This document shows, in pieces, positions 2,535 to 30,741 of a stretch of 34,227 nt of DNA. The DNA comes from Nitrospirae bacterium RIFCSPLOWO2_02_FULL_62_14 (GTDB taxonomy: Bacteria; Nitrospirota; Nitrospiria; Nitrospirales; Nitrospiraceae), in NCBI GenBank assembly GCA_001805245.1, contig MHEU01000023.1, positions 55,596 to 89,822 of the forward strand. Reading direction: 5' to 3'. The position numbers were made by a program, and so were the translations under genes. The number at the start of each line of letters is the position of its first letter. The stretch's first letter is position 1. The notes beneath the pieces are model-generated. The model was not told the DNA's origin. It did not search any database and was given only the letters and a program-made list of their open reading frames with translations.

Positions 2535-2538
<4 letters not shown>

Positions 2539-2900
2539 GATCCTTTGCGGACCTGCGAGGGGGTAACTTGTCCTCTCTCAAGCAGGTCAAAAAGCTTCTC
2601 GTTTCGTGGATGAGTCATAAAGTGCTGAAGAGCCTCGAACCAAATGTCGACCCTTCGCTGAATCGGCAGATTCTGTCGGATGCGCGAAATAATGACCTGG
2701 CCACGATAGCCAGAAGCGACATCTTCGAATTCGGTGTCTTGAGTGAGAAGCACAATATCCTCGGTGGTCAACCGCTTGCGAATTTCTGAATCGTTAACCC
2801 CACGTTGGCCGAGAATAATGATGTGCTCAACATCGAACGCCGCCTGTTTCAGCCGGTGGTACAACGGCAGTGGGAAGTTCTCATCCAAGAGAATCTTCAA
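2535..2900 (-). CDS. DUF5615 PIN-like toxin
   Basis: 121 residues, N-terminus [10 protein letters not shown], with the [11 protein letters not shown] acidic segment near residue 51. These are hallmarks of the DUF5615 PIN-like family, which is usually paired with a DUF433 protein and regarded as the toxin (a putative RNase) of a type II toxin-antitoxin pair. The upstream partner at 2897-3127 overlaps it by 4 bases. Its own stop overlaps the purL ATG. The acidic residues expected for a PIN-type metal site (Asp6, Glu7, Asp near 54) are present, so it looks intact. RNase activity is inferred from the family, not shown. Confidence 0.8.
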
Positions 2901-7274: not shown

Positions 7275-7302
7275 ACGCGCTGCTACCCGGCCTGAGCCAC
7301 GA

Positions 7303-13752: not shown

Positions 13753-15471
13753 CTATTCGCTGTTCGCTACTCGCTTTTTTTGACTGCGGGCGGCCTTGAC
13801 GAGCGCGGATCGCGCCGGGGCGTTGAACAGATTTTTAAAAATGCGATGCACGTTCGCCGTGTGCCGGCGGTGGTCGGAGAGAAACTTCCGGCCTGCCGCC
13901 CTCCGATCGACCGGGTCATACCCGAGCCGGATGGCGCAACGCGCCAACTCGTCGGGTGATTCGGGCAGCGCGTGGGTCTGAAGATCGTGGACCATCTGCA
14001 ATTTGTGCTCGACGTCCCGCAGGAACACGTATGCCCGCTCAAGAGTTCGCCGGTCCGCGGACGAGAGCAGCCGGTGGCGGGCCATCCTCTCCAATGCCCC
14101 CAGCGTGCTGCGGTCCCGGAGATCCGGCAGCCTGCCGCCGAGAAGGATCTGCGCCGCCTGCACGATAAACTCGATCTCGCGGATACCGCCCCGCCCCAGC
14201 TTGACATTTCGGCGCTCCTGCCCCCGGTCGGCCATTTTCGCATCGATCATGTCCTTCACGGCTTTGATCTGGGCCAGAATCGCCTCCGGCGCATGTGCGT
14301 CCGTCCCGTCAAAAATAAACGGTTTGATCCGGCTCAAAAACGCCTCGCCGACTGAACGGTCGCCTGCCACCGGCCAGGCTTTGAGCAACGCCATCCGCTC
14401 CCACTGTTCGCCCCGCGTGCGATAGTACTGCGCGTAGCGGTCGAGCGACCGGGCCAACTGGCCGCTGGTGCCTTCGGCGCGGAGCCGCAGGTCCACCCGA
14501 AAGACATGGCCCTCCTGCGTCACATCCGCCAGGGTCTTCGTGACGGCACGCGCCAGACGTTCAAAATATTCCTCGTTGGAGATGCCGCGGCTCGAGTCCC
14601 TGGCGCCGGCACGGCCGGCTGGTGCCGTCGTGCCGCTGTCGGAGGCGTAGACAAACAGCAGGTCCACATCGGAGCTGAAATTGAGTTCGCCACCGCCGAG
14701 TTTTCCCATGGCAATGACGGCGAAGCCGGTCTCGACCAGCCGACCGCTGGAATCTTTATGTCTTGGCCTGCCGTATTCCTGGTTCAGCCCGGCGCCGGCA
14801 ATCTCGTAGGCGGCATGGATCAGCACGCAGGCCAGGTCCGTCAATGCTGCGGTCGTCTCCCTGACATCGGCCATCCGCAGTAAATCTCGAATGCCGATGC
14901 GCAGCATCTCGCGCCGCCGGAACCGCCGCAGCGCATCCAGCTGAAGCTCCGCCGCCTTGACGTTCCCCAGCATCATGCGCAGCGACGCCGCCAGCATGTC
15001 CCGCGACGGCCTGCGCGTCAGGACTTGTTGTTCCGCCAGCCAGTAGACCAGCAGCGGATCCCGGATCAATGTCTGGGCCATGGACGGACTGTTCCCGAAA
15101 ATCGTGCAGAGCAGATGCAGCATGCGCGGGTTGCCGCCGAGATAATCGAGAATCTGGCTCCGGTTGAGGCCGGCCTGCAGGAAACGCTCCCAGTGATTGA
15201 GGCCCTGATCCGGATCGGCGGTCCGGGCCAGCATGCCCAGGAGCTCGCCGAGAAATTTGGCCAGGAGCAGCCGCGTGCGGGGCTCGCCGGCCATGGACTG
15301 AAGATTGGCGTCGGCCAGCTTGAGGTCTGTCAGCCCGTAGGGCGCCAGCAGCCTGGCCACGCCGTCCGGCTTCAGGCCCGAAGCCAGCAGGAGCGGCGAC
15401 GGGTCATGCTTCCGGACGGCCGACCACCCCTTGCGGGATCGTCGCGGGCGGGAAGATGGAGCACGTGTCAT
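13753..15471 (-). CDS. GlnE-type adenylyltransferase, single-catalytic-domain half protein
   Basis: Resembles the N-terminal (adenylyl-removing) half of GlnE, which controls glutamine synthetase by adding or removing AMP. 572 residues against about 950 for whole GlnE. The nucleotidyltransferase motif GKLGGGELNFSSDVDLLF (256-273) has both aspartates (Asp268, Asp270), and a third acidic residue lies in FRVDLRLRAEG (Asp327). A PII-uridylyltransferase-type helical domain follows (NVKLGRGGIREIEFIVQA, 422-439). It ends after this domain with no second catalytic half. The rest may be supplied by the divergent gene at 16212. A perfect TATAAT ends 8 bases before the ATG, so the mRNA is probably nearly leaderless. 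Confidence 0.85.
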   Translation of the reverse strand: MTRAPSSRPRRSRKGWSAVRKHDPSPLLLASGLKPDGVARLLAPYGLTDLKLADANLQSMAGEPRTRLLLAKFLGELLGMLARTADPDQGLNHWERFLQAGLNRSQILDYLGGNPRMLHLLCTIFGNSPSMAQTLIRDPLLVYWLAEQQVLTRRPSRDMLAASLRMMLGNVKAAELQLDALRRFRRREMLRIGIRDLLRMADVRETTAALTDLACVLIHAAYEIAGAGLNQEYGRPRHKDSSGRLVETGFAVIAMGKLGGGELNFSSDVDLLFVYASDSGTTAPAGRAGARDSSRGISNEEYFERLARAVTKTLADVTQEGHVFRVDLRLRAEGTSGQLARSLDRYAQYYRTRGEQWERMALLKAWPVAGDRSVGEAFLSRIKPFIFDGTDAHAPEAILAQIKAVKDMIDAKMADRGQERRNVKLGRGGIREIEFIVQAAQILLGGRLPDLRDRSTLGALERMARHRLLSSADRRTLERAYVFLRDVEHKLQMVHDLQTHALPESPDELARCAIRLGYDPVDRRAAGRKFLSDHRRHTANVHRIFKNLFNAPARSALVKAARSQKKRVANSE

Positions 15472-16211: not shown

Positions 16212-18473
16212 ATGGACCAGCAGGCGATACAGCGCGACGCCATCCTGAACAATCTTCTGGCGTCGGCCCCGGACCTTGCGCCGGACGTGGTGCGCGACTT
16301 CCTGTCCCGCATGGACGAGGAATACTTCCAACGGTTTCAGCCGGCCGACATCATCCGGCATCTCCAACTCGTCGAGCGCCTGACGCCCGATCATCCCTGC
16401 CACGTGTCCGTGACGGAACACGACGGCGGATGGTTGCTGGTCATCGTGGCCTACGACTATTTTTCAGAGTTCGCGGCCATCGCCGGTCTCCTCTCCAGCC
16501 ATCGCCTGGATATCCGCGAGGGCGCGCTCTACACCTACACGGATGCATCGGGCCAGGCCGGCCCGCGCCCCGCCGCTCCCGGAAGACGCGCCCCGACCCG
16601 TCCCGGCCTGTCACGGAAGAAAATCGTGGATGTGTTCCGTGTCCGTCCGCTCCCCGGCTCGACGTTCGGCCCTACGGAGCAGCGCGCGCTGGCCGGCGAG
16701 CTCGAGCAGGTCATCCGCCTGCTGGATGCCAGGCAATTTACCGATGCGCGCCGGTTCGTCAACCGCCGGCTGGTCGAAACGCTCGGCAAGGCGCGCGGAG
16801 CATTCCACGGCCTCCTGGCGCCCGTCCAGATCCGGTTCGATAACCAGGCCTCACCGACCAGCACCGCCATGGACATCCGTTCGACCGACACGCCGGCGTT
16901 CCTCTATGCCTTCGCCCTCGCGCTGTCGATGCGCGGGCTCTATATTCACCAGGCCCGCTTCGAGCATGTCGGGGATGAGTTGCACGACCGCTTTTTCGTC
17001 CGCGGCCGGCACGGCAGGAAAATCGAGAGCAAGGCCGAGCAGCAAGAACTGCTCGTCACCGCCACGCTCGCCAAACAGTTCACGCAGCACCTGATCTGGG
17101 CTCCCGATCCGACCAAGGCCCTGGAATCCTTCGATCAGTTCCTGGACCAGCTGTTCCGCGACGCCCGCGGAAAAAAAACGCTGGCCTTCCTTTCGAAAAA
17201 ATCGACGCTGCCGCTCCTCGCCCGCCTGCTCGGCACCAGCGAGTACCTCTGGGAGGATTTTGTCCGCCGGCAGCATGCCAACCTACTGCCGATCCTGGAT
17301 GCCCACCGCGACACGCCGCTCGTCCGCACCCGGCAGCAATTGGCGCTCGCGCTCCGCCGGCAACTGGCCCGCGCCGGCACCGACGAGCGGCGCCGGGCCA
17401 TCCTCAATCAGTTCAAGGATCAGGAACTGTTCCGCATCGACATGAAACATCTGTTGGACCAGAAGACCACGCTGCCCGATTTTTCACGCGCGCTGACCAA
17501 TCTGGCGGAAGCCATCCTGGAGCAGGCCGTGGCGGACTGCGCCGCCAGTCTCGTGCGCCGGCATGGCGTGCCCCGGCTCGACCGCCGGACGCCCTGCCCC
17601 TTTGCCGTCTTTGCCATGGGAAAGTTCGGCGGCCGGGAACTGGGGTACGCCTCCGACATCGAAGTCCTCTTCGTCTTCGGAGGACCCGGACGGACGTCAG
17701 GGCGGCAGCCTCTCGATCATAGCGAGTACTACGAACGCCTGGTCCATATGCTGCTGCAATGGATCGAAGCGAAGCAGGAGGGAATTTTCCGCCTGGATGT
17801 GAGACTGCGTCCGCATGGCGGGAAAGGCCTCCTGGCCAATACCCTGGATGAACTGCGCCGCTATTACAGCCCGTCCGGGCTTGCCGCCCCGTTTGAACGA
17901 CAGGCGTTGACCAAGCTCCGGTTCGTGTGCGGGGACCGTACGTTAGGCGGGCAGGTGGAGGCGCATCGCGATGCCTTCGTCTACAGCGGCCAGCCGTGGG
18001 ACCTGGCCGCCTCCCTCTCGTTGCGGCGGCAACAGATCAAGGAACTGGTGGAGCCCGGACAGATCAACGTGAAATACAGTCCCGGCGGCATCGTGGACAT
18101 CGAATACACTGCCCAATACCTGCAGGTATTGCATGGCCATGCCCTCCCCGATCTTCGCACCCCCAACACGCTGGAGGCAGTGGCGGCGGCGGAGCGTCAT
18201 CGGCTCCTGACGGCCCGCGAGGCCGGGGCTCTGCACGATGCCTATCTGTTCCTGCGAAGCCTGATCGACGCGCTGCGGATCGTCCGCGGCCATGCCAAGG
18301 CCCTGGTGCTCCCCGCCATCGGATCGGATGAGTTTATTTTTCTGGCCAGACGGATGGGCTACACGAAAGACGACTGGCAGGGAGAAGCGAACACGCTCGC
18401 CGGCGACGTGACGCGGCACATGGAGGAAGCTCGCACGATTTACGCAAACCGGTTCGCCCGGGACAACGGCTAG
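16212..18473 (+). CDS. ACT-ACT-GlnE-type nucleotidyltransferase fusion protein
   Basis: 753 residues. About 65-110 (HVSVTEHDGG, then LLVIVAYDYFSEFAAIAGLL) and about 205-270 (QIRFDNQASP, then DIRSTDTPAFLYAFALALSM, ending in FFVRGRHGRKI) resemble ACT domains; the second is very like the C-terminal ACT of GlnD. From about 440 the protein is GlnE-like: GKFGGRELGYASDIEVLFVF (471-489) with Asp482 and Glu484 where GlnE has DxD, Asp529 in FRLDVRLRPHG, then a helical PII-uridylyltransferase-type domain (GGIVDIEYTAQYLQ). Joining GlnD-type sensors to a GlnE-type catalyst suggests the adenylylating half of a split GlnE system that senses glutamine directly. That role is inferred. It is divergent from the other half gene. 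Confidence 0.75.
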   Translation: MDQQAIQRDAILNNLLASAPDLAPDVVRDFLSRMDEEYFQRFQPADIIRHLQLVERLTPDHPCHVSVTEHDGGWLLVIVAYDYFSEFAAIAGLLSSHRLDIREGALYTYTDASGQAGPRPAAPGRRAPTRPGLSRKKIVDVFRVRPLPGSTFGPTEQRALAGELEQVIRLLDARQFTDARRFVNRRLVETLGKARGAFHGLLAPVQIRFDNQASPTSTAMDIRSTDTPAFLYAFALALSMRGLYIHQARFEHVGDELHDRFFVRGRHGRKIESKAEQQELLVTATLAKQFTQHLIWAPDPTKALESFDQFLDQLFRDARGKKTLAFLSKKSTLPLLARLLGTSEYLWEDFVRRQHANLLPILDAHRDTPLVRTRQQLALALRRQLARAGTDERRRAILNQFKDQELFRIDMKHLLDQKTTLPDFSRALTNLAEAILEQAVADCAASLVRRHGVPRLDRRTPCPFAVFAMGKFGGRELGYASDIEVLFVFGGPGRTSGRQPLDHSEYYERLVHMLLQWIEAKQEGIFRLDVRLRPHGGKGLLANTLDELRRYYSPSGLAAPFERQALTKLRFVCGDRTLGGQVEAHRDAFVYSGQPWDLAASLSLRRQQIKELVEPGQINVKYSPGGIVDIEYTAQYLQVLHGHALPDLRTPNTLEAVAAAERHRLLTAREAGALHDAYLFLRSLIDALRIVRGHAKALVLPAIGSDEFIFLARRMGYTKDDWQGEANTLAGDVTRHMEEARTIYANRFARDNG

Positions 18474-18795: not shown

Positions 18796-19581
18796 TTAGT
18801 CGTCGTCTTCCCCCTGCCCTTCCGCATTCAAACCGGCCAGTTCGGCATAGGCCCGCAGGATATCCGACACGGACAGCACCCCGATAATCGTGCCATCCTC
18901 GGTCACCGCGATATGCCGGATCGCCTTCCGTTTCATGAGCGTGATCGCCAGCGACAGCGGTTGGTCGTCCTCGATCGAGATCACCGGCTTGCTCATGCAC
19001 GATTTTACGGCCGCCGTATTGGGATCCATCCCCTTGGCCACGGCCTTTCGGCTCAGATCCGTGTCCGTGATGATCCCCAGATAGCGCGATCCGTCATCCA
19101 CCAGCAGCGAGCCGACTTTCCACTTCTGGAGCAGACGTCCCGCCTCTTTGAGCGGAGCGTCCTTGTGCACGCTGCGCACGTCATGTGACATGTAATCGGC
19201 CACACACGCATTGGCGAGAGGACTCCTGCCGGCCCCGCCCGTTTGCAGCGTGACGACGCAACTCTCAAGGGCCTGCTTGCGCTGCTGCAGGCTTTCGCGG
19301 TGGGTATCCTGGGCGCCTCCCTCCTGCGCCTCTTCCTGCATGTTCAACAGCGCAGCCGCCTCGCCCATGGTCGCGTATTCGTAGGCCTCTCGGAGATCGG
19401 ACGTTTCGCCGAATACCTCCCCGATCAACGTCTCGGCTTCGGCGTCGAACTCCTCCAGCGACGTGGTCGGTTTCCGTCTGGAAAGAAGCGGCTGGAAACG
19501 GGCCAGCAGTTCGCGAAACCGCTCGACATCGTGCGTGACAATCGAGGCTTTATTCTGTTTCTTATGGCCCGGCCTGCCCAT
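18796..19581 (-). CDS. CBS-domain pair protein
   Basis: 261 residues from ATG 19581. The N-terminal 120 residues are helical and charged (Gln/Glu-rich around 80-105). Two CBS domains follow: about 127-182 (VADYMSHDVRSV, GIITDTDLSRKAV) and 193-246 (SCMSKPVISIEDD, GVLSVSDILRAY). CBS pairs bind adenine nucleotides and act as energy or nucleotide sensors. No catalytic domain is attached, so it probably regulates a partner. A longer frame to 19719 runs through the REP repeat and is unlikely to be translated. The N-terminal part is not a family I recognise. Confidence 0.8.
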   Translation of the reverse strand: MGRPGHKKQNKASIVTHDVERFRELLARFQPLLSRRKPTTSLEEFDAEAETLIGEVFGETSDLREAYEYATMGEAAALLNMQEEAQEGGAQDTHRESLQQRKQALESCVVTLQTGGAGRSPLANACVADYMSHDVRSVHKDAPLKEAGRLLQKWKVGSLLVDDGSRYLGIITDTDLSRKAVAKGMDPNTAAVKSCMSKPVISIEDDQPLSLAITLMKRKAIRHIAVTEDGTIIGVLSVSDILRAYAELAGLNAEGQGEDDD

Positions 19582-19642
19582 ACCCTTCCCCGTAAAAAGC
19601 AGATGCAGAGTACCGCACCGCCCGTCCGAGAAACAAGAGGGT

Positions 19643-19676
19643 GGGGACTGGCCCTTTTCCGCCCAGGGCCTGTCCC
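19643..19676. repeat. REP-like inverted pair
   Basis: GGGGACTGGCCC (19643-19654) and GGGCCTGTCCCC (19665-19676) pair at all but one position. Same head sequence as the elements at 15563 and 15892. Confidence 0.7.
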
Positions 19677-19686
19677 CCTTCCCACT

Positions 19687-19761
19687 GGGACAGGCACCGC
19701 CGCCATTCGACAGGCTCATGGCCCCGAGCTTAGTCGGGGGGCGGCCGGCGGAGCCAGTCCC
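19687..19761. repeat. Nested repeat: REP-like pair around a TTCGACAGGCTC hairpin
   Basis: The outer arms GGGACAGGCACCGCCGCC (19687-19704) and GGCCGGCGGAGCCAGTCCC (19743-19761) pair with few mismatches. The loop between them (19706-19740) holds a relative of the repeat found in purF (TTCGACAGGCTCATGG, then CCCGAGC). The right end touches the stop codon of the octaheme cytochrome gene, so the structure may also serve as its transcription terminator. Confidence 0.75.
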
Positions 19762-21176
19762 TACCCGCCGCCCCGCTTGCCCTGCATTTCTTTATCGTAG
19801 AACTCCAGCATCCGGGCAATCTCCTCCCTGGTCATGCCCTTCTCAATCCATCGGTGGGCTTCCTGCGCGAGCAACTCCTTGGCCACCTGGGGAGAACGCT
19901 CGCGCACCAGCGGGAGAAACTTGGTGTAAAAATGCTTGGCGACCTCATAGAAGCCCTGCCAATGGACAAAATCAGGCGCTATTTTTGAGAGCCCGTGCCT
20001 GGCCCGCCGTCCCTCATGATGCCATAGTTCGTAAAATACCCACTCGATCTCTTCATCGTAGGGAGTCGGCGTGATCTTCTTCATGGCGAGCAGCTTATCC
20101 ATGGCCGCCTTGGACGGCTTGCCGAATTTTTCGTTATAGAGGGTGATGCCTCCGTCCATCTGCGTGAAGAACCGCTCGACGATCTGCTCGCTGTGGCAGG
20201 ACGCGCAGACCTGCCTCATCGCTTTCCGGCGGGCTTCGTGGTTCTCGAGCCGCGTCGAGACGACCGGACGGAGGGTCCAGCTGATGCGGTCGCCCACGTC
20301 ATGCGTGACGTCCTGCGTATGGGTCGCGCTCATGTGGCAGGTGGCACAGGTGGGAAAGAGATAGTCTTTCCCGGGATGCCACTGCTCCGACGGCTGCGCG
20401 AGCTTCATCTTGTCCTTGTTCGCCGCAAACATGACACCGTGCTTGCTTTCGTAATAGGCCTCGATCTGGGGATGATCCGGCCCCATATGACAGCGGCCGC
20501 AGCTTTCCGGTTGCCGCGCCTGGGCGATCGAGAAACTGTGCCGCGCATGACAGGCGGCGCAAGTTCCCTTCGATCCATCCGGGTTCACCCGGCCGATTCC
20601 TGAATTCGGCCATGTGGATGGATGGAGCTTTCCGTTTTCCATGACCTTCACGACGCTGCCATGGCATCCGGCGCACCCCGTGGTAATCACTTCCGGCCCT
20701 TCCACGACGTTGCCGAGGAAATTATCGAGGGAATTGGTGAATTGAGCGGCCTTGGCATGATGGGACTTCTCGAATTCCTTGGCCTCTTTGTCGTGGCACT
20801 GCATGCAGTCCTTCGGCGTGACCAGCGTGGACACCATCGAACCGTAATGGTCGTAGGCGTCCGGCTCCCCTTTCTCCGCCCGATGGCATTCGACGCACCC
20901 GATGCCCTTCGGCGCATGGCGGCTGTATTTCCAATCATTGATTCCGCCGACCGCGATATCCTTTGCCATGTGGCAATCGATGCATTTCTTGTTCTCGCCG
21001 GAAATGAACGGCCGCAATCCACCGCCCAGCCGCTCCTCGATCTGCACGTACCCGACCCCGGTCAGCGCAAGGAACAACACGAGGCACAGCCCCCCAATCA
21101 TGTAACGGGTGAAATTCATTTTCCCGTTCGGCGCATCGTGCCGTTCTTCGCCTTGGTTTCCATCATGTTCGTTCAT
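19761..21176 (-). CDS. HAO-like octaheme cytochrome c, membrane-anchored
   Basis: 471 residues with eight CxxCH sites (Cys at 65, 94, 124, 168, 206, 226, 277, 324). A single N-terminal membrane helix (about 24-45) exports the heme part. The heme spacing and the region WHHEGRRARHG with PDFVHWQGFYE near 385-411 place it in the hydroxylamine oxidoreductase / octaheme nitrite reductase superfamily. HAO carries a cross-linking Tyr near here; I see Phe403 in the place I would align with it, which would favour a reductase or electron-transfer role. It is the last gene after Rieske and cytochrome b. AAAGGA lies before the ATG. Substrate is unknown; nitrite, hydroxylamine, or only electrons are possible. 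Confidence 0.8.
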   Translation of the reverse strand: MNEHDGNQGEERHDAPNGKMNFTRYMIGGLCLVLFLALTGVGYVQIEERLGGGLRPFISGENKKCIDCHMAKDIAVGGINDWKYSRHAPKGIGCVECHRAEKGEPDAYDHYGSMVSTLVTPKDCMQCHDKEAKEFEKSHHAKAAQFTNSLDNFLGNVVEGPEVITTGCAGCHGSVVKVMENGKLHPSTWPNSGIGRVNPDGSKGTCAACHARHSFSIAQARQPESCGRCHMGPDHPQIEAYYESKHGVMFAANKDKMKLAQPSEQWHPGKDYLFPTCATCHMSATHTQDVTHDVGDRISWTLRPVVSTRLENHEARRKAMRQVCASCHSEQIVERFFTQMDGGITLYNEKFGKPSKAAMDKLLAMKKITPTPYDEEIEWVFYELWHHEGRRARHGLSKIAPDFVHWQGFYEVAKHFYTKFLPLVRERSPQVAKELLAQEAHRWIEKGMTREEIARMLEFYDKEMQGKRGGG

Positions 21177-21203
21177 GGTGTTTCCTTTACCTATTGGCCA
21201 GGC

Positions 21204-22232
21204 TCACATCCGCGTATCCAGATACATCAGGACAGCCACGGCGGCGACGACGACGCTGCCCACAACGGCATTCATGACCATCATCGGCCATCCGCGCTCC
21301 GACAACACACGGTCCACGAACGGGTACGCCACAAAGAGTCCGGCTCCACCCAACAGACTCCAGATTGCCACCGGCCCCGGCAGCAGGGAGATCCACATGT
21401 ACGGCGCGGAGAAATACCATGGCGGCGAGACGTCCGAGGCGACCTCCTGCGGATTGGCGGGAGGTCCCAGCATCGGCGGAAAGATCATGACCAGATCCAC
21501 GATCAACACCAGGAACCCCACGGCGATCGCGCCCATCTTCAGCGTATGTTCCGGATAGAAGGGATGGAAGCCGCGGCTTCCTTCGACATTCGCGAATCCA
21601 AGCAGCCGGACCACCACGACATGGCAGGCCACCAGTCCCCCCAGGAGCACGGGAAGCAGCTTGGTATGCAGGTCATAGAGCCGCAGGAGCGTGTTGCCGG
21701 ACACCTCCTCGCCGCCCCGCAGGAGGTGCAACAGCGGCGTCCCGACAATCGGCAGTGCCCCGATCATGCTGGTCACGACCGTCATGCCCCAGTACGACAC
21801 GTTGTCATAGACCAGCGAGTACCCCGTGAACCCCATGGCGAAGGTCACGAATAACACCAGCGAGCCGCTCACCCATTTCAGTTCACCCGGTGGCCGGTAA
21901 GCGCGAGTGATGAACACCCGGATGACGTGGAAAAGCAGAAACAGGATCATCAAGTCCACCGACACCTTGTGCAGGCCGCGCACGAACCAGCCCAGATAGA
22001 CTTCATGCGTAATCTGCTCCACGCTTTCGTAGGCCTTTTCCGGTGACGGCACATAGTAAAAGGTCAGCATGAGGCCGGTCGCCACCAGGAGACCGAACAG
22101 CGTGAGAGGAATCGCCCCGAGCGTGTAGGGCCACCAGTCCAAATGCTCCGGCAAGTCCTTCTGGATGTAGTCCACCCAGGACTTCGGAGTCGGTTCCTGT
22201 TGAGCCTGCGCCGCCTGTGGTGTTGTGCTCAT
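21204..22232 (-). CDS. Cytochrome b subunit (b6-type) of a bc complex
   Basis: 342 residues, about eight membrane helices. Heme ligands are His88/His102 (13 residues between) and His189/His204 (14 between, the b6-type spacing). The quinol-site motif reads PPWY (270-273) where PEWY is usual. It is shorter than mitochondrial-type cytochrome b (about 380-430). It transfers electrons from quinol to the Rieske protein and, through the b hemes, across the membrane. The Rieske gene lies 114 bases upstream and the octaheme gene 27 bases downstream, so the three probably form one complex. Confidence 0.9.
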   Translation of the reverse strand: MSTTPQAAQAQQEPTPKSWVDYIQKDLPEHLDWWPYTLGAIPLTLFGLLVATGLMLTFYYVPSPEKAYESVEQITHEVYLGWFVRGLHKVSVDLMILFLLFHVIRVFITRAYRPPGELKWVSGSLVLFVTFAMGFTGYSLVYDNVSYWGMTVVTSMIGALPIVGTPLLHLLRGGEEVSGNTLLRLYDLHTKLLPVLLGGLVACHVVVVRLLGFANVEGSRGFHPFYPEHTLKMGAIAVGFLVLIVDLVMIFPPMLGPPANPQEVASDVSPPWYFSAPYMWISLLPGPVAIWSLLGGAGLFVAYPFVDRVLSERGWPMMVMNAVVGSVVVAAVAVLMYLDTRM

Positions 22233-22346
22233 CTCTTGTTGTGTCCGTTACTTCCGTTGGTCCGTTGGTGCAGTTTGGTCCATTACATCCGTCACGAGTC
22301 CTTAACCGACCAACGGTCTAAACTGACTCAACGGGCCCAACGTCCT
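22233..22346. repeat. Word-repeating spacer between Rieske and cytochrome b genes
   Basis: CCGTTGGTCCGTTGGT (from 22254) faces GACCAACGG (22308-22316), and CAGTTTGGTC faces GGTCTAAACTG, giving an imperfect hairpin. The spacer is of the same degenerate reiterated style as 4094-4158. No gene is seen. Confidence 0.4.
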
Positions 22347-22793
22347 TCACGTGCTCTGGATATTCACGTACAGTTGTTCTCCCCGCCTGATCACCTCGAA
22401 CCGGTCGAGCGGGCGGGGCGGAGGTCCTGCGATGTTTGTTCCGTTCTTGTCATACACACCCCGGTGACAGGGGCAGAGAAACTGCTGGCGCTCCCTGTTC
22501 CATGACACAAGACACCCAAGATCCGTGCAGCGCCTGGAAAAGGCCGCGACGCCCTGGTCCGTCTGCAACACCAGAATCTTGTGGCCGCCGAAATCCATCG
22601 ACAGCGCTTCTCCCGGCTGAATCCGTGACTCCGCCCCGATGAGCACCGCTTCGGACTGTCTCGGTTTCTGGCTCGGAACCAGAAACTGAACGAATCGCAG
22701 CCCGAGGGTGCCGAGCCCGAAGAGAAGCCCGAACCCCATCACTGCCTGGCTCAAAAACCGGCGCCGGCCGGCATCATCGTGAATGATGGCCAT
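22347..22793 (-). CDS. Rieske-type iron-sulfur protein with a changed ligand box
   Basis: 148 residues. An N-terminal twin-arginine-like stretch (GRRRFLSQAVMG) and membrane helix (about 16-38) anchor a Rieske domain. Box 2 is normal (CPCHRGVYD; Cys107, His110). Box 1 reads CTDLGC (89-94): Cys89 and the disulfide-type Cys94 are kept, but the histidine ligand of CTHLGC is Asp91. The codon is GAT, one base from the His codon CAT. The proline-rich GPPPRPLDRF loop is conserved. Head of the cytochrome b / octaheme cluster. The ATG lacks a clear Shine-Dalgarno; the spacer upstream is degenerate and repetitive. Confidence 0.85.
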   Translation of the reverse strand: MAIIHDDAGRRRFLSQAVMGFGLLFGLGTLGLRFVQFLVPSQKPRQSEAVLIGAESRIQPGEALSMDFGGHKILVLQTDQGVAAFSRRCTDLGCLVSWNRERQQFLCPCHRGVYDKNGTNIAGPPPRPLDRFEVIRRGEQLYVNIQST

Positions 22794-22856: not shown

Positions 22857-23999
22857 TCACGAGTAGCCCCTCTCCCCGTGCTGCGTCAGATCAAGCCCCA
22901 CAACCTCCGCCTCTTCGTCCACGCGCGGCGGCAGGACCAGCGTGAGACCTTTTACCAGGAGAAAGGTCACAGTCCCGGCAAAGGCCCAGACAGAAACCAC
23001 CGCCACCATCTGCGCGAAAAACTGGTAGGGATAGCCGTAGAACAGGCCGTCGCTTCCTTCCGGATTGACGGTCGTGGAGGCAAAGAGCCCGGTGGCGATC
23101 ATGCCCCACGTGCCGCCGACCCCGTGCATGCCGAACACATCGAGCGAATCGTCATATCCCAGAATGAGTTTCACGTAGTTCACCACCATGTAGCAGAGCC
23201 CTCCGGCCCCGATCCCGATGACGACCGCCGAGAAAGGGCTGACATAGCCGGCCGCAGGAGTAATCGCCACGAGCCCCGCCACGGCTCCGCTGATCGTTCC
23301 CAAGGCCGTGGGTTTGTCCCGTTGCAGCCATTCGGCCGCCATCCACGTTAATGCCGAGGCTGCGGCGGACATCTGGATCGCCACAAAGGCGCCGGTCACA
23401 GTGGTCATCGGCGCCAGCGCGGCGCCCGCTGCAAATCCGAACCAGCCGACCCACATCAACCCTGCTCCGCAGAACGACAGGGGCAGATGGTTCGGCGTCA
23501 TCTCGACCCGTCCGTACCCTTTGCGCGGCCCGATCATGACCGCCGCCACCAGCGCCGAGACCCCGGCGCTCACATGGACCACTGCGCCGCCGGCAAAATC
23601 GAGTACACCCAGATTCGCGAGCCATCCGCCTCCCCAGAGCCAGCGCGCAATCGGTCCGTAGACCAGCGCAGTCCACAGGAGCCCGAAGACGAGGAAGAAC
23701 AGCACCTTCATGCGTTCGACCAGCGCCCCCGTCACCAGCGCCAGCGCGAGCGCAGCGGTCATCGTCTGGTAGGCCAGTTGCGGCGCCGGACTTCCCAGCC
23801 TCCTGCCGAACGTCAGCGTATCCCCGAAACACAGCCATGCCAGCGAGACCACGGCGAGCGCCAGCAACGGCATGCCCATGGTGTTGAGCACGTTTTTCTT
23901 CCGCACCATCCCGCCGTAAAATAACGCCACGCCCGGCAGCGTCAACATGACCAGCACGGTGGAAACCAGCAGCCACAGTGTTTGATCGGACCGGAGCAT
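22857..23999 (-). CDS. Divergent ammonium transporter-family protein (Amt)
   Basis: 380 residues of the Amt/Mep/Rh family: FYGGMVRKKNVL at the N-terminus, DFAGGAVVHVSAG with the first pore His (His142), FGMHGVGG with the second (His292), and the cytosolic tail GLDLTQHGERGYS. Compared with E. coli AmtB and the neighbouring Amt, both periplasmic Phe-gate positions are altered (Tyr77 and Thr81 for Phe103 and Phe107), and the recruitment residues Asn216 and Ser219 are alanines (Ala190, Ala193). It may have altered selectivity or a sensing role. It follows the next Amt gene by 13 bases. Confidence 0.9.
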   Translation of the reverse strand: MLRSDQTLWLLVSTVLVMLTLPGVALFYGGMVRKKNVLNTMGMPLLALAVVSLAWLCFGDTLTFGRRLGSPAPQLAYQTMTAALALALVTGALVERMKVLFFLVFGLLWTALVYGPIARWLWGGGWLANLGVLDFAGGAVVHVSAGVSALVAAVMIGPRKGYGRVEMTPNHLPLSFCGAGLMWVGWFGFAAGAALAPMTTVTGAFVAIQMSAAASALTWMAAEWLQRDKPTALGTISGAVAGLVAITPAAGYVSPFSAVVIGIGAGGLCYMVVNYVKLILGYDDSLDVFGMHGVGGTWGMIATGLFASTTVNPEGSDGLFYGYPYQFFAQMVAVVSVWAFAGTVTFLLVKGLTLVLPPRVDEEAEVVGLDLTQHGERGYS

Positions 24000-24012: not shown

Positions 24013-25251
24013 TCACGAATACGCTCTCTCGTTATGTTGGGTGAGATCCAGGCCCATCCGCTCCTCCTCCGGCGTTATCCGCAACCCGACGAGGCGATTC
24101 ACGAGCTTCAGGATGAGATAGGTTCCGAGGCCGGCAAACAGCGTCACCGCCAGCGTGGCCAGAATCTGCACCCCGAAGAACCCGGCATTGCCGTGCAGCA
24201 AGCCGTCGGCTCCTCCGGGGTTGACCGCTGTGGAGGCCAGCACGCCCGTCGCCAGGACACCGAACACGCCTCCGACCCCGTGGATGCCGACGACGTCCAG
24301 CGAATCGTCATAGCCGAACTTCCCCTTTTTCATGATCGCCAGGTAGGACAGCCCGCCGGCCGCCAATCCGATCAGCATCGCGGAAAATGGCCCGACGTAC
24401 CCGGCTCCCGGCGTGACGGTCGCCAGCCCGGCTACAGCTCCGCTGGCGATGCCGAGCACCGTCGGCGTCCCGCGATGCACCCATTCGACCGCCATCCAGG
24501 CCAAGGCCGCGGTTGCAGCAGCCGTATGAGTGGACACAAACGCGACGACCGCGATCGAATTGGCTCCCAATGCACTGCCCCCATTGAACCCGAACCACCC
24601 CACCCAGAGCAGGCCGGTCCCCAGGAGCACCATGGGAAGATTGTGGGGCGCCATGTATTCGGTGCCGTACCCCTGGCGCTTGCCGAGCACATAGGCACAG
24701 ACCAGGGCGCTGATTCCGGAACTGATGTGCACGACCGCTCCGCCGGCAAAATCCAACGCGCCCAGCTTGCCCAGCCATCCCCCTCCCCAGAGCCAATGGG
24801 CGACCGGGCAGTAGATGACGACCGACCAGAGGACCGAGAAGAGGAGCAGGGCGCTGAACTTCATCCGCTCGGCAAAGGCGCCGGTGATCAGGGCCGGCGT
24901 GATCGCCGCGAACATCATCTGAAAGATCATGAATGCCTGGTGTGGGATCGTCGGCCCGTATGCCGGATGCGGTGACAACCCGACCTCGCGGAGCCCGGCC
25001 CATTCCAGCCCGCCGATGAGGCCCCACTTGTCCGGTCCGAACGCCAGACTGTAACCAAACAGGATCCAGAGCAGACTCACCACGCACAGGATAACAAAAC
25101 TGTGCATGATGGTACCGAGTACGTTCTTGCTGCGGACCAGCCCGCCGTAAAAGAGGGCCAGCCCCGGCACGATCATCGCCAGCACCAGGGCCGAGGCGAT
25201 CAACACCCAGGCCGTATCGGCGGGATCAATTTGAGGCACTATCGGCGTCAT
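24013..25251 (-). CDS. amt: Ammonium transporter Amt (canonical pore)
   Basis: 412 residues with 11-12 membrane helices. The AmtB features are all present: Phe110 and Phe114 (gate), twin pore histidines His175 and His324, GWFGFNGGSA with the Asn and Ser of the recruitment site, Asp167, and tail GLDLTQHNERAYS. GGGAG lies seven bases before the ATG. It is cotranscribed with the divergent Amt downstream and lies 123 bases after cyanase. It imports ammonium, which could also recapture ammonia from cyanate breakdown; PII from the glnB gene in this window is a likely regulator. Confidence 0.96.
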   Translation of the reverse strand: MTPIVPQIDPADTAWVLIASALVLAMIVPGLALFYGGLVRSKNVLGTIMHSFVILCVVSLLWILFGYSLAFGPDKWGLIGGLEWAGLREVGLSPHPAYGPTIPHQAFMIFQMMFAAITPALITGAFAERMKFSALLLFSVLWSVVIYCPVAHWLWGGGWLGKLGALDFAGGAVVHISSGISALVCAYVLGKRQGYGTEYMAPHNLPMVLLGTGLLWVGWFGFNGGSALGANSIAVVAFVSTHTAAATAALAWMAVEWVHRGTPTVLGIASGAVAGLATVTPGAGYVGPFSAMLIGLAAGGLSYLAIMKKGKFGYDDSLDVVGIHGVGGVFGVLATGVLASTAVNPGGADGLLHGNAGFFGVQILATLAVTLFAGLGTYLILKLVNRLVGLRITPEEERMGLDLTQHNERAYS

Positions 25252-25374: not shown

Positions 25375-25827
25375 CTACTTGGTTTGCTCAATGTGCGGAA
25401 GGAATTTGCCGTTCCACGTCATGACGACACGATCCTCCCCCTGGCTTCCCTTCGTCTTGTGGATCGTGAACCGGAAATCGATCGCGGACATGATCCCGTC
25501 GCCGAATTGCTCCTGGATGATGGCCAGGATCCCGTCGCCATAATGAGCGCAGACCTCCGTCATCCGGTACACGTGAGGCTCCTGAAGGATGGCCGGATCA
25601 AAGGAACGAACCGGGGGCTTTCTCATTTCTTTCAGGAGATCCTCGGTGAGACCCGGCAGCAGCTTGACCAGTTTCTCCTCGGTCCCCTTCTTCAGTTGCG
25701 CCTGCCGGCGCAGGATCTGGGCGACATAGACATTGCACAGGCCCAGCGCATCGGCCAGTTCGTCATACGTCTTTCCGGATTTTTCCTTCAGTGCCAGCAC
25801 CTTCGCCACGACTTCCTTCTTGTCCAT
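25375..25827 (-). CDS. cynS: Cyanase (cyanate hydratase) CynS
   Basis: Converts cyanate and bicarbonate to ammonia and CO2. 150 residues from ATG 25827, close to the E. coli length of 156. AGGAGGG lies 6 bases upstream; a GTG at 25830 is the alternative start. The N-terminal domain is a helix-turn-helix-like dimer fold (DELADALGLCNVYVAQILRR). The C-terminal cyanase domain carries the catalytic Arg88, Glu91 and Ser114 in EPHVYRMTEV and DGIMSAIDF. It follows the transporter genes by 186 bases on the same strand. Confidence 0.97.
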   Translation of the reverse strand: MDKKEVVAKVLALKEKSGKTYDELADALGLCNVYVAQILRRQAQLKKGTEEKLVKLLPGLTEDLLKEMRKPPVRSFDPAILQEPHVYRMTEVCAHYGDGILAIIQEQFGDGIMSAIDFRFTIHKTKGSQGEDRVVMTWNGKFLPHIEQTK

Positions 25828-26013
25828 CACAATCCCTCCTGTGATTTAGAGCCGGCCGGCCACAACAACCGGCACATGCTCGCTGGTTATGTCCCTTGGA
25901 CCTATCGACTCTTCGCACACGGGCTGCCTGCAACCGCTCGTGCACATCCTGTCATCCATCTCCGTACCCATATCTGCTCCTTATGATTGCGCGTGCGGTG
26001 CATGTGGCATGCG

Positions 26014-26880
26014 TCATCGCAAGATGAGCGATTCCTTCTCGAAATCCACGACTCTGGGACTCTTGCCATCCGACGCGCCGGAGGCCACCTCCACATCGTC
26101 ATGCTTGGCGTGCTCAACCAGGAAATGAATGATGTGGTTCCTGATCTTGTAATAATGGGGATGCTCGATGACCGTGACGCGAGCTCGGGGCCGTGGTATC
26201 GTCACGATGACGTTTTCGGCGATTCGCGCTCCCGGGCCGTTGGTCATGAGCAGAATTCTATCGGACAGCAAGATCGCCTCATCCACGTCGTGCGTGACCA
26301 TGAAGACCGTGTTGCGCGTCGCATTCCACATCTGAATCAGCTCTTCCTGAATCACGCCGCGCGTAAGCGCATCGATCTGCGCAAACGGCTCGTCCAACAG
26401 CAGTACTTTCGGCTCGATGGCGAAGGCTCTGGCCAACCCGACCCGTTGTTTCATGCCGCCCGACAGCGCCGTCGGCCGTTTAGTCTCGGCGCCCTTGAGC
26501 CCGACCAGCGCGATGTATTTGTGCACGTGCGCGGCGATCTTCTCGCGGTCCCAGTCCGGATAGGCCGCCCGTACCGCCAACCGGATATTGTCAAAGACCG
26601 TCATCCAAGGCATCAAGGCAAAGTTCTGGAAGACCACCATCCGGTCCAGTCCGGGCCCGGCGGCTTCGCGCCCGTTCAAGATCACGCCGCCTTCCGTGGC
26701 CGATTCTAGCCCCGCGATGATGTTCAGAAGCGTACTCTTGCCGCACCCGGAGTGCCCGATTGTCGTGACGAACTCGCCCTTCTCGATTTTGATCGTCACG
26801 TCCTTGAAGATGCAGACGGGACTCCCGCCCGAGTGGCTCGGAAAGAATTTCGTCATATGATCGATCTGCAAAAAAGCCAT
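26014..26880 (-). CDS. cynD: ABC transporter ATPase, nitrate/cyanate type (CynD/NrtD)
   Basis: 288 residues. Walker A GHSGCGKST (42-50), signature LSGGM (139-143), Walker B VLLLDEP (159-165), and the switch His197. It belongs to the NrtD/CynD/TauB-like group energising uptake of small anions. AGGAG lies before the ATG, inside the end of the permease gene, with 3 bases between the genes. The assignment to cyanate rather than nitrate rests on cynS downstream. Confidence 0.85.
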   Translation of the reverse strand: MAFLQIDHMTKFFPSHSGGSPVCIFKDVTIKIEKGEFVTTIGHSGCGKSTLLNIIAGLESATEGGVILNGREAAGPGLDRMVVFQNFALMPWMTVFDNIRLAVRAAYPDWDREKIAAHVHKYIALVGLKGAETKRPTALSGGMKQRVGLARAFAIEPKVLLLDEPFAQIDALTRGVIQEELIQMWNATRNTVFMVTHDVDEAILLSDRILLMTNGPGARIAENVIVTIPRPRARVTVIEHPHYYKIRNHIIHFLVEHAKHDDVEVASGASDGKSPRVVDFEKESLILR

Positions 26881-26883
26881 CGG

Positions 26884-27765
26884 TTACTCCTGATAGGTGA
26901 CAAGACCTGCCAGCTTGTTGAATCCCGAGTCCAGAATGACTCCGACCACTCCCACGACCAGGATGGCGAAAATCACGCCGGCAATATCAAGATTGTTCCA
27001 TTCGATCCAACTGAGATAGCCCACACCCAACTCGCCCAGCAACATCTCGGCGGGCACCACGGCCACGAGCGCGCTCCCGAATGAGATCCGCAATCCGTTC
27101 ACAATCGTCGGCGCGGCCCCCGGAAGAATGACTTTGTACAGCCGCTTGAACCACGATAGCTGGAGAATGGCCGCCACGTGCAGATACTCCTTGCGCAGGG
27201 ACGTGACCCCAAACGCCGTGGTTGCCAGGGTCGGCCATATCGCCGCCATGAACACGACCAGCACCGCCGTCCATTTCGGATCCTTGACGGTATAGAGCAG
27301 CAGCGGCATCCACGCCAGGGGCGAGATCGGCTTGAGAATCTGGATGAACGGGTTGACCGCCTGGAACAGCGCTTTATTCAGCCCCAGCAACACACCGAGC
27401 ATGATCGCGACCACCGACGCCGCGAGAAAGCCCGCCGCAAAGCGTGACACCGTGTAGACCACGAGATACGCGATCCCATGGTCGTTGGTCCCCTTTTTCA
27501 CAAACGCCTCGGCGAGCTCCATTCGGGCTTTATCGAACACCATCAGCGGTCCCGGCACGCCTTTGACTTTCTCCTTTTCGGGATTCCAGGCGTATCCCCC
27601 TTCCGGCGTCCGGACGATGTCCCCGTTGAATTCCATCAACTGCAACTGCTCGTCCGTCTTTCCTTTCGGGTCAAATGCCGGACGCAACGTGAACAGATGC
27701 CAGCCCGTCAGAAAGACGGCGAGCAGAAACACGGAGATCATCCACGGTTGACCTTGAGTGCTCAT
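26884..27765 (-). CDS. cynB: ABC transporter permease, nitrate/cyanate type (CynB/NrtB)
   Basis: 293 residues. An N-terminal membrane anchor (about 9-27) is followed by a long periplasmic stretch (about 28-95) and a BPD_transp-type domain with about five helices. The EAA-like loop reads ATTAFGVTSLRKEYLHVAAIL. ILKPISPLAWMPLLLY is typical of the NrtB/CynB/SsuC group. It forms the membrane channel with the ATPase. 24 bases separate it from the binding-protein gene. Confidence 0.85.
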   Translation of the reverse strand: MSTQGQPWMISVFLLAVFLTGWHLFTLRPAFDPKGKTDEQLQLMEFNGDIVRTPEGGYAWNPEKEKVKGVPGPLMVFDKARMELAEAFVKKGTNDHGIAYLVVYTVSRFAAGFLAASVVAIMLGVLLGLNKALFQAVNPFIQILKPISPLAWMPLLLYTVKDPKWTAVLVVFMAAIWPTLATTAFGVTSLRKEYLHVAAILQLSWFKRLYKVILPGAAPTIVNGLRISFGSALVAVVPAEMLLGELGVGYLSWIEWNNLDIAGVIFAILVVGVVGVILDSGFNKLAGLVTYQE

Positions 27766-27789
27766 CTATTCCCTCTCTCGTCGGCCCGA

Positions 27790-29112
27790 TCACGCCATGC
27801 TGTGAATCTTGAAGCTCTTCACATAGGCCTCTGGCTGCTCAGGATCGAACGCCTTGCCCATGATCACGTGCTTGGCCATCGTGCTTTTATGGGTTGGATA
27901 GCCCAGTTCCTTGGCAATCCGGTCGCAATCGGCGGCAAGGTAGACCTGTTCGGCGACCGCTTTGTAGTTCACGTCCTGCTTGAGATGCCCCCAGCGCTTC
28001 ATCTGCGTCAAAATCCAGATGGCCATCGAGTGCCAGGGGTAGGGATCAAAGTCGATCCGGTCAGGCACCTTCTGTATTTTTCCGAGCCCGTCGGCATAGG
28101 TGCCGGTGAGCACCTGTTCTAACACCGTGACCGGCTGATTGAGATAGTTCGTCGGTGCAATGGCAGTCGCGATCTCTTTGCGGTGCGCCGGATTGGACGC
28201 GTAATGCGTGGCGTCCACAATAGCCCGGAAGAGCGCTATGAACGTATTGGGATGCTGGGTTGCAAACGCTTTTGAGACGGTGAACGCGCAACAGGGGTGG
28301 CGGTCCCAGATCTCCTTCGACAGCTTGTAGATGAACCCCACATTTTCATACACGGCACGCTGATTGAACGGGTCCGGCGCCAGGTAGCCGTCGACATTCC
28401 CGGCCTTCAGGTTCGCCACCATCTCGGGCGGCGGCACCACGCGAATTTGGACATCCTTATCGGGATGGACGCCGCCATCGGCAAGGAAATAGCGCAGCAG
28501 ATAATTGTGCATGGAGTAATCGAACGGGACGCAGAACCGGAAGCCCTTCATGTCGGCGGCCGTTTTCACGTCCTTGTGCTTGATGTGCAGCGTGATCGCC
28601 TGCCCGTTGATGTTTTCCACCGCCGGCATATAGAACGGCGTCGGCACCGAACCGGCGCCCAGCGTGATCGCCAGCGGCATCGGCGTCAGCATATGCGCGG
28701 CATCCACTTCCTTGTTGATCGCCCAGTCCCGGACCATCGCCCAACCAGCCGCGCGCTTCACCGTTGCATTCAATCCGTGCTTCTTGTAGAACCCCAGCGG
28801 CTCCCCCATGATGATCGGGGTCGCGCAGGTGATCGGAATAAATCCTATGCTGAGATCCTTTTTCTCGATCTTGCCGACCGGATCGGCCGCCAGGGCCGTC
28901 AGCGTGTTCAACGGCAGGACCTCGCTGATGAGCGCCGCCAGGGCGGCACTCCCGAGCCCGGCCAGGAGTTGACGACGGGTTGGTCCGGCCGCCGTCAGAA
29001 CCGATTCGACCACGGTTCGCTCGATCGCGCGCGCGAAATACTCCTCGGAGGACAACTCGCCAGTAACACTGACATCGACGGGGCCTGATTTTTCCTCGTG
29101 TGATCGTGACAT
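27790..29112 (-). CDS. cynA: ABC transporter substrate-binding protein, nitrate/cyanate type (CynA/NrtA)
   Basis: 440 residues from ATG 29112, with GGGAGG six bases upstream. An N-terminal cytoplasmic stretch of about 40 residues precedes a twin-arginine signal (TRRQLLAGLGSAALAALI; Arg46-Arg47), then a Nrt-type anion-binding domain (SIGFIPITCATPIIMGEPLGFYKKHGL). The Tat signal suggests export in folded form. The family binds nitrate, nitrite, bicarbonate or cyanate. Cyanate is favoured by the order cynA-cynB-cynD-cynS, as in cyanobacterial operons. No lipobox is seen. Confidence 0.8.
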   Translation of the reverse strand: MSRSHEEKSGPVDVSVTGELSSEEYFARAIERTVVESVLTAAGPTRRQLLAGLGSAALAALISEVLPLNTLTALAADPVGKIEKKDLSIGFIPITCATPIIMGEPLGFYKKHGLNATVKRAAGWAMVRDWAINKEVDAAHMLTPMPLAITLGAGSVPTPFYMPAVENINGQAITLHIKHKDVKTAADMKGFRFCVPFDYSMHNYLLRYFLADGGVHPDKDVQIRVVPPPEMVANLKAGNVDGYLAPDPFNQRAVYENVGFIYKLSKEIWDRHPCCAFTVSKAFATQHPNTFIALFRAIVDATHYASNPAHRKEIATAIAPTNYLNQPVTVLEQVLTGTYADGLGKIQKVPDRIDFDPYPWHSMAIWILTQMKRWGHLKQDVNYKAVAEQVYLAADCDRIAKELGYPTHKSTMAKHVIMGKAFDPEQPEAYVKSFKIHSMA

Positions 29113-29140
29113 CGGATACCTCCCAGTTTGAACGGGACAC

Positions 29141-29207
29141 AATAAAAAAGGCGCCAACGTCTGCCAGGGAAGTCCCCTCTGGCTCCCCTGACAGCACTGG
29201 CGCCTTT
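29141..29207 (-). terminator. Long two-stem hairpin with T-run: glnA terminator or cynA leader attenuator
   Basis: On the minus strand the outer stem AAAGGCGCCA (29207-29198) pairs perfectly with TGGCGCCTTT (29156-29147), and an inner stem of 8 of 9 pairs (29194-29186 with 29169-29161) stacks inside. A run of T follows at once (29149-29144). It lies after glnA and 28 bases before the cynA ribosome site, so it may end glnA transcription or act as a conditional terminator for the cyanate genes. Confidence 0.8.
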
Positions 29208-29305: not shown

Positions 29306-30715
29306 TTACACGTCGTAATACAGGAAAAACTCGTACGGATGCGGGCGGAGCCGGAGCGGATCCACTTCGCGGGTCCGCTTGTAGCCGATCCACGCATCGA
29401 TCAAGTCTTCCGTAAACACGCCGCCCTTGAGCAGGAACTGATGGTCCTTCTCGAGATGCTTGAGCGCGTCGTCCAGGCTGCCCGGCATGGTCGGGACCCT
29501 GGCCGCTTCGCGCGCCTCCAGGTCGTAGAGGTCCTTCTCCATCGGCTCTCCCGGATCGATCTTGTTCTCGATCCCGTCCAGCCCGGCCATCAACATGGCG
29601 GCAAAGGCCAGGTAGGGATTCGTCGAAGGATCAGGGAACCGGACTTCGATCCGCTTCGCTTTCGGATTGGGCGAATACATCGGAATCCGGATGCCGGCCG
29701 AGCGGTTCCGGCTCGAATAGGCCAGCATGACCGGCGCTTCGAATCCGGGCGTCAGCCGCTTGTAGGAGTTGACCGTCGGGTTCGTGATCGCCGCCAGCGC
29801 CGGCGCATGTTTCAGGATGCCGCCGATGTAATGCAGGCACAACTGCGACACTCCGGCATATTCCTTACCGGCGAACAGTGGCTTCCCCTCTTTCCAGATG
29901 CTCTGGTGCGTGTGCATTCCAGACCCGTTGTCGCCGAACAATGGTTTGGGCATAAAGGTCACGGTCTTGTGGTGTCGCCTGGCCACATTCTTGACGATGT
30001 ACTTGTACATCATCATCTTGTCGGCCATGACGACCAGCGAATCGAACCGCAGATCTATTTCAGCCTGACCGGCCGTCGCCACCTCGTGATGGTGCTTCTC
30101 CACCGGAATGCCGACTTTTTGCATTTCCAGGATCATCTCGCTGCGGATGTCCTGCTGCGTGTCGATCGGAGGCACCGGAAAGTAGCCTTCCTTGTGCCGG
30201 ATCTTGTTGCCGAGATTCACGCCCTCCTGGCCGGCATTCCAGACGCCTTCCTCGGAGTCGAGGAAGTAGTAGCCGCTATGGCTCGTCTGGTCAAAACGCG
30301 CGTGGTCGAAAATGAAAAACTCGGCCTCAGGCCCCCAGTAGGAGATATCGCCGATCTTGGTGCTCTTGAGATGCTTCTCCGCCTTCTGCGCGATGAACCG
30401 CGGATCGCGCTCGTAGATTTCGCGCGTGATGGGATCCATGACGTTGCCGACCAGGCTGAGCGTCGGCACCGCCGTGAAGGGATCCATGCAGGCGGTGGCC
30501 GGGTCCGGCACCACCAGCATGTCGCTGTTGTTGATGGCCTTCCATCCCCGGATGGACGAGCCGTCCAGGCCCGAACCGTCCTTGAACGTGCCTTCGTTGA
30601 GTTCCTCGATTGGAATCGTGAAATGCTGCCAGGTGCCGGGCAAATCCACGAATTTCAGGTCGACGACCTGAACCCTGTTCTTCTTTGCATATTCGAGTAC
30701 TTCACGCGGAGTCAT
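29306..30715 (-). CDS. glnA: Glutamine synthetase type I GlnA
   Basis: ATP-dependent amidation of glutamate with ammonium. I start at ATG 30715, which has GGAGG six bases upstream; an ATG six bases earlier touches the ribosome site. This gives 469 residues, the E. coli length, and places the adenylylation tyrosine in DLYDLEARE exactly at 397. Active-site marks are [19 protein letters not shown] and [13 protein letters not shown]. It follows glnD by 26 bases, so amt3-glnB-glnD-glnA is likely one operon. Tyr397 together with the GlnE-type genes at 13753-18473 implies control by adenylylation. Confidence 0.97.
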
Positions 30716-30741
30716 CCACATCCTCCTTTCAAACCACTACC

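Follow-up and report, generated by a model that had tools for sequence, protein, structure and literature searches.

What does a Rieske/cytochrome b pair do when its neighbor is an octaheme cytochrome c and the surrounding genes serve nitrogen assimilation? The question is raised by a stretch of 34,227 nucleotides (G000:C23:55596-89822, in the following the window) from a genome of the Nitrospiraceae whose assembly is 95% complete. A preliminary description made from the letters had seen here three consecutive genes for a Rieske protein, a b6-type cytochrome b and an anchored octaheme cytochrome c (OCC; "ONR" in the Nitrospira literature), and matches to PF00355, PF00033 and PF13447 on the minus strand show that all three are real. 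This module is a member of the published Nitrospira module of ONR and Rieske/cytochrome b. Nitrospira moscoviensis (L014) and other Nitrospira have the identical genes in identical order (blastp), so that the arrangement is not due to chance, and the identities to N. moscoviensis amount to 85% for the OCC, 84% for cytochrome b and 83% for the Rieske protein. The window copy shares genes, order and nitrogen-assimilation setting with the ONR/petBC genes of N. moscoviensis and N. japonica and differs from them in nothing in kind. Since the module has already been published, the preliminary finding adds a member to it; what matters is an aspartate in the Rieske box.

Residue exchanges in the Rieske protein and cytochrome b

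Box I of the Rieske protein reads CTDLGC, and Asp91 stands at the position of the His in CTHLGC (or CPHLGC) which we take to be the cluster-binding residue. All 21 aligned Nitrospira rows, some of them partial and all spanning the motif, have this Asp, and both GAT and GAC codons are found among them. Six other Rieske loci of the window's genome retain the His; two of these are bc-type and lie next to PEWY cytochromes. Rieske proteins coordinate their cluster by two His residues (PMC12954380), and it is this two-His pattern that fails here, the first His being Asp in 21/21 Nitrospira rows and in 7/7 rows from a second phylum described below. The two ligand Cys and the Cys pair of the disulfide are invariant in the same 21/21 and 7/7 rows. 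His110 of box II (CPCH) is also kept. As it is the sole invariant His of the soluble domain of about 110 residues, no other His can replace the one missing from box I. The probable ligands of the cluster are two Cys, one His, and either Asp91 or a solvent molecule. A structural model of the protein (predicted local distance difference test score, pLDDT, 77.6) was closest to 8hn2 (Z 15.3, root-mean-square deviation 3.0 over 107 residues) and to 1g8j (Z 14.8, 1.7 over 103 residues).

Two further positions differ together with the Asp. Two residues ahead of box I there is an Arg in all 28 Asp rows (21 Nitrospira, seven from the second phylum) versus 2 of 28 His loci (25 and 3), and this Arg may offset the charge of the Asp. 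Box II is followed by Gly instead of the Ser that raises the potential of Rieske clusters (PMC12954380). Together the Asp and the missing second-sphere Ser should lower the potential, which would suit a low-potential quinol and the low-potential octaheme.

Mutation work on Rieske proteins regards both His residues as essential, and their deprotonation is central to the uptake of electrons and protons from quinol. When a ligand His is mutated in the Rieske protein of bc1, the cluster is lost. This, together with the replacement of a fixed cluster-His position in a soluble domain that has no other invariant His besides that of box II, would agree with a subunit that has no cluster and acts as scaffold only. 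We nevertheless consider a clusterless scaffold improbable, since no row departs from the ligand Cys, the disulfide Cys or the second His, a constancy that a dead site would not require.

The cytochrome b carries a second exchange. Its Qo-site motif is PPWY in 23/23 Nitrospira rows and 7/7 rows of the second phylum, and the Glu of the Qo motif of bc/b6f Q-cycle complexes is therefore absent from the module; the other two cytochromes b of the window's genome have PEWY. The best match in the Protein Data Bank is cytochrome b6, with a weaker match to subunit IV. Four heme-ligand His residues are present in pairs spaced by 13 and 14, a spacing that we assume to follow the rule for b6. The position of the heme-ci Cys is Leu, and the protein is one chain of 342 residues, whereas b6f has split b6 and subunit IV. 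Neither CTDLGC nor PPWY had been noticed in the preliminary description.

That description had also stated that HAO-like subunits are found in some bc complexes of anammox bacteria, which is correct (PMC12954380). The Kuenenia stuttgartiensis complexes Kuste4569-4574 and Kustd1480-1485 resemble the window module in having a b6-like cytochrome b, a multiheme protein replacing cytochrome f and, in one of them, an HAO-like OCC. They differ from it by split b6 and subunit IV, an NAD(P) oxidoreductase subunit and ordinary His coordination (PMC12954380). The best Kuenenia match, kuste4569 (9rk4), has an ordinary CTHLGC box. The potentials of the Kuenenia Rieske proteins are high (+303 and +335 mV), and these comparable domains have already been expressed and measured (PMC12954380).

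Spread of the set and apparent exchange of the octaheme head

Of 295 Nitrospirota genomes 13 have the pattern CTDLGC...CPCH, and every one of these belongs to the family of the window. A PPWY cytochrome b adjoins the CTDLGC Rieske gene in 12 of the 13; none is visible on the short piece of the thirteenth (L062). No Asp pattern was found in 68 Hydrogenedentota genomes. In the phylum of G359, the genome holding L018, a pattern allowing His or Asp matched in 156 of 395 genomes, and among the 150 matches listed we counted by eye 149 with His and one with Asp (G603). Of 59 relatives of G603, 22 match the pattern and seven of these have Asp; G377 and G534, which are among the seven, also match in the scan of the G359 phylum, outside the 150 matches listed. 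At each of the seven second-phylum loci (L123, L145-L150) the Asp Rieske gene has genes for a PPWY cytochrome b and an octaheme next to it. A pair of amt genes is located upstream in L123, L145, L147 and L149; a single one can be seen in L146, where the contig ends, and one in L150 with no second within the preceding 4 kb, while L148 starts at the Rieske gene. With the Rieske protein of the window those of the seven loci share 52-57% identity, so that these copies are not recent contamination from Nitrospira.

As His controls we fetched 20 of the 149 His matches from the G359 phylum. All 20 have His, and where the Qo motif was readable (10 loci) it was PEWY in seven, PDWY in two, PSWY in one and PPWY in none. 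PEWY was also read at three His loci from relatives of G603, which show no octaheme gene within the fetched stretch. A tree was built from 39 Rieske rows, 14 of them with Asp. These 14 form one group (support 97/93), consistent with a single origin of the Asp Rieske protein; the deeper branches are weak.

The octaheme of the window has exactly eight CxxCH motifs and one hydrophobic anchor helix near its N-terminus (residues ~24-43, window 21048-21107). Its best solved relative in a profile search is 4qo5, the OCC of the archaeon Ignicoccus hospitalis (232.6 bits, E 7.3e-68), with HAO and others at no more than about 105 bits; the kinship extends over the octaheme domain. The Ignicoccus protein is reportedly membrane-associated, as the title of a cited reference also has it. 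Four of the seven second-phylum octahemes are of the same kind (58-64% identical to the window protein). The other three, in L145, L147 and L148, are only about 30% identical to it: among solved structures the head of L147 comes nearest to 4n4j of Kuenenia and related proteins rather than to 4qo5, and with the L147 protein those of L145 and L148 share 72-82% identity. These HAO/HOX-like proteins nonetheless start with an OCC-type anchor helix. Between L147 and L149, 30 of 49 anchor residues are identical and 38% of the remainder. When the comparison was made with OCC relatives that have other partners (L039, L041, L017, L018) and with L138, the anchor score was reached by 8 to 101 of 200 shuffles; the weaker anchor match of L131 was reached by none. 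Judged from sequence, an anchor of one kind under different heads points to docking of the anchor on the Rieske/cytochrome b core and to an exchangeable catalytic part.

Two simple rules of pairing were discarded. An Asp Rieske protein is not required for an octaheme partner, as L131 and L138 have His Rieske proteins with PEWY cytochromes. Nor is the Asp Rieske protein tied to one octaheme type, the HAO-like proteins being a second. By eye we also noticed OCC relatives beside other membrane partners in L017, L018 and L038. These partners are either a NapC-like four-heme protein or a four-heme protein together with NrfD-like and Fe-S ORFs (open reading frames); L038 has a four-heme ORF, and NrfD-like and Fe-S ORFs are found in L018.

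Descriptions of the Asp or PPWY motif were not found in the available text of open-licence literature on Rieske proteins with octahemes or on Nitrospira, and neither the kinship to 4qo5 (IhOCC) nor second-phylum copies are mentioned in the available parts of the Nitrospira module papers (PMC6606698, PMC6311188, PMC12342949). As far as the open-licence literature shows, three things are new: the combination of an Asp-for-His Rieske protein and PPWY, the occurrence of this set in a second phylum, and the apparent exchange of the head. Tentatively, and at somewhat less than even chances, we propose a natural Rieske cluster of two Cys, one His and one Asp which became fixed together with the Qo Pro for Glu and which feeds low-potential electrons from quinol to an anchored octaheme with an exchangeable head, of the Ignicoccus OCC or of the HAO/HOX kind; it would define a distinct Rieske/cytochrome b class for ammonium production in at least two phyla. 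If this is true, the fixed His-to-Asp change, coupled to the loss of the Qo Glu, would be a test of the Q cycle made by evolution and could account for the supply of low-potential electrons to a nitrite-to-ammonium reductase.

Probable nitrite reduction to ammonium and other possible functions

The Nitrospira literature describes an "octaheme nitrite reductase" encoded beside Rieske/cytochrome b and proposes that it uses electrons from quinol to convert nitrite into ammonium for assimilation (PMC6606698, PMC6311188, PMC12342949, in which Koch 2015 and Ushiki 2018 are cited for the module). Most genomes with ONR have petBC next to it and a quarter have NapC instead (PMC12342949). With nitrite as the only nitrogen source all three genes are highly expressed in N. 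moscoviensis (PMC6606698), and N. japonica expresses the octaheme on nitrite but does not do so with ammonia (as cited in PMC6606698).

Other routes from nitrite to ammonium were searched for in the window's genome. A search for NrfA (PF02335) gave one sub-threshold match (L095) and none over the cut-off. We rejected L095 as NrfA: its NrfA score stays below the cut-off, as does its score for another multiheme family that it matches. The NIR_SIR domain (PF01077) was found in a single protein (L093), which looks like a sulfite reductase: its neighbors, judged by eye, are ORFs similar to cysD, cysN and cysH, and it has orthologs at 76% in N. moscoviensis, which is without NirA (PMC6606698), and in the HAO-bearing genome G228. 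Its scores are below every NCBIfam equivalog cut-off; the best two sub-threshold models are of the NirA type, which counts against reading it as a sulfite reductase. On the strength of the cys-like setting, the orthologs and the sub-cut-off scores we did not accept L093 as NirA. By eye, and not in the Pfam result, the NIR_SIR protein (G000:C9, L100, ORF 5191-7779) ends in a TusA-like stretch. Because NrfA has no match over the cut-off and the NIR_SIR protein is read as a sulfite reductase, the octaheme appears to be the only candidate for nitrite assimilation in this genome, within the limits of a 95% complete assembly.

Another Nitrospiraceae genome (G174) was noted to have a NIR_SIR match, 35% identical to the sulfite reductase query, at G174:C1:978398-979768 just beyond its octaheme gene (L124, G174:C1:972000-990000). 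As this match is on the octaheme contig, G174 may have two routes of nitrite reduction.

We therefore come to the proposal, put forward as one of two options in the preliminary description, of a quinol-driven reductase making ammonium for the glutamine synthetase nearby. It matches the published reading for Nitrospira and fits the NrfA and NIR_SIR results as well as the amt genes upstream of the module in two phyla; this linkage to Amt suggests ammonium as the product. The function is read from gene context and expression, and we consider it quite likely that the module is a membrane-bound quinol:nitrite reductase for assimilation. In such an enzyme quinol would be oxidized at the Qo site of cytochrome b. 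One electron would pass to the Rieske cluster and from there to the octaheme with its eight hemes, and the second would cross the membrane via the two b hemes. Hemes of the c type are attached on the outer side of the membrane. On this outer face the octaheme would reduce nitrite, or possibly hydroxylamine, to ammonium, which the neighboring Amt proteins would import for GlnA. A cluster of lower potential would, judging from general redox chemistry, suit menaquinol and the difficult stage from NO to hydroxylamine. What is observed for the module are the genes it contains and their order, the motifs with their conservation and, in print, the expression; what we infer are its substrate and direction, the formation of a complex, the ligation by Asp and the potential.

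Several points weigh against the assimilatory reductase. The protein has no biochemical characterization (PMC6311188), and as the assembly is 95% complete a NirA could be missing from it. The eight CxxCH motifs without any CxxCK depart from both NrfA and the ONR of Thioalkalivibrio (TvNiR). TvNiR has eight hemes like the window protein, for which the same ammonium product is proposed, but its active heme is bound by CxxCK (PMC8840924); having CxxCH only, the window protein is without a defining feature of that enzyme. OCC relatives in L131 (G417, 43%) and L138 (G369, 34%) adjoin a His Rieske protein and a PEWY cytochrome b. Finally, the AlphaFold model of the octaheme (A1, 10 rows) reached a pLDDT of 45.4 and gives no usable active site.

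The other option of the preliminary description was a variant complex III, in which the octaheme merely relays electrons to soluble cytochrome c. The b6/bc-type fold with its four His ligands and the absence of another cytochrome c from the gene cluster would agree with it. The genome has, however, two other pairs of Rieske protein and PEWY cytochrome b (L047, L049), the genes stand in a nitrogen-assimilation setting and are expressed with nitrite as nitrogen source (PMC6606698), and three genomes have an HAO-like head instead of the OCC. A variant complex III is therefore unlikely in our opinion.

Electrons could also flow in reverse, with an HAO-like octaheme oxidizing hydroxylamine or NO into the quinone pool, or detoxifying them. 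The protein belongs to the same multiheme superfamily as HAO, with which it has a conserved central block in common, and three second-phylum heads are near Kuenenia 4n4j (L147 as compared, L145 and L148 through their identity to it). In a tree the HAO proteins of related Nitrospiraceae form a separate branch from the OCC rows (100/100). Matches to PF13447, found in 57 of 118 genomes of the family, fall at their best into two score ranges, HAO mostly with E below 1e-90 and the OCC type at about 1e-30, plus some partial hits; the window protein with E about 1e-31 is far weaker than the HAO of related genomes. The cross-linking Tyr near the C-terminus is Tyr467 in N. europaea HAO. MAFFT could pair it with the invariant Tyr410, hhalign stops before this C-terminal segment, and the alignment is ambiguous there. 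The low score of the OCC, the expression of the N. japonica gene and the Amt linkage speak against reverse flow, which we regard as very unlikely.

Little more can be said for the view that the substrate of the octaheme is a different small molecule, for instance sulfite, NO or hydroxylamine, with ammonium being incidental. Octaheme nitrite reductases do reduce hydroxylamine and sulfite as well (PMC8840924), but the linkage to amt, glnA and cynS in the window, to amt and glnA in other Nitrospira and to amt in the second phylum makes it highly improbable.

Neighboring genes

Read in the direction of transcription, the minus strand carries amt (cut), glnD, glnA, a nitrate/cyanate-type ABC transporter, cynS, two further amt genes, then the Rieske, cytochrome b and octaheme genes, and after these the genes for a CBS-domain protein and a GYD protein (Table 1). 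The intergenic gaps at the Rieske, cytochrome b and octaheme genes are 63, 114 and 27 bases. Two Amt genes and cyanase upstream of the module, as originally described, are borne out by PF00909/TIGR00836 and PF02560/TIGR00673. A pair of amt genes stands ahead of the module in Nitrospira, and other Nitrospira keep the linkage of amt and glnA; the third amt gene of the window lies farther upstream of glnD and is cut by the window edge.

Table 1. Features of the module, its motifs and its neighbors (window positions unless a locus is named)
Feature	Position	Strand	Basis and remarks
Octaheme cytochrome c (OCC/ONR)	19761-21176	-	471 aa; PF13447 E 5.8e-30
b6-type cytochrome b with fused subunit-IV-like part	21204-22232	-	342 aa; PF00033 E 9.6e-47
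PPWY at the Qo-site motif	21414-21425	-	alignment
Rieske protein, N-terminal helix and soluble domain	22347-22793	-	148 aa; PF00355 E 1.6e-11, over cut-off
Rieske box II, CPCH	22464-22475	-	motif and alignment
Rieske box I, CTDLGC	22512-22529	-	motif and alignment
Amt ammonium transporter 2	22857-23999	-	PF00909, TIGR00836
Amt ammonium transporter 1	24013-25251	-	PF00909, TIGR00836
Cyanase CynS	25375-25830	-	PF02560; TIGR00673 over cut-off
NrtABC/CynABD-type ABC transporter (ATPase, permease, binding protein)	26014-29157	-	TIGR01184 over cut-off; TIGR01183 below cut-off; PF13379
Glutamine synthetase GlnA	29306-30721	-	PF00120
GlnD PII uridylyltransferase	30742-33420	-	PF08335 plus HD and ACT-type domains
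HAO/HOX-like octahemes with OCC-type anchor helix	L145:26-1396, L147:2838-4256, L148:1878-3371		beside Asp-Rieske/PPWY cytochrome b

Directly downstream of the octaheme gene the CBS-domain gene (window 18796-19719, minus strand) is kept in L014, L012, L006 and L124. Further along the window there is a divergent pair of GlnE/GlnD-type nucleotidyltransferase genes (13753-15471 on the minus and 16212-18473 on the plus strand), which as a pair is kept in L006 and L124. A small DUF5615/PIN-like protein (2535-2900, minus strand) adjoins purL.

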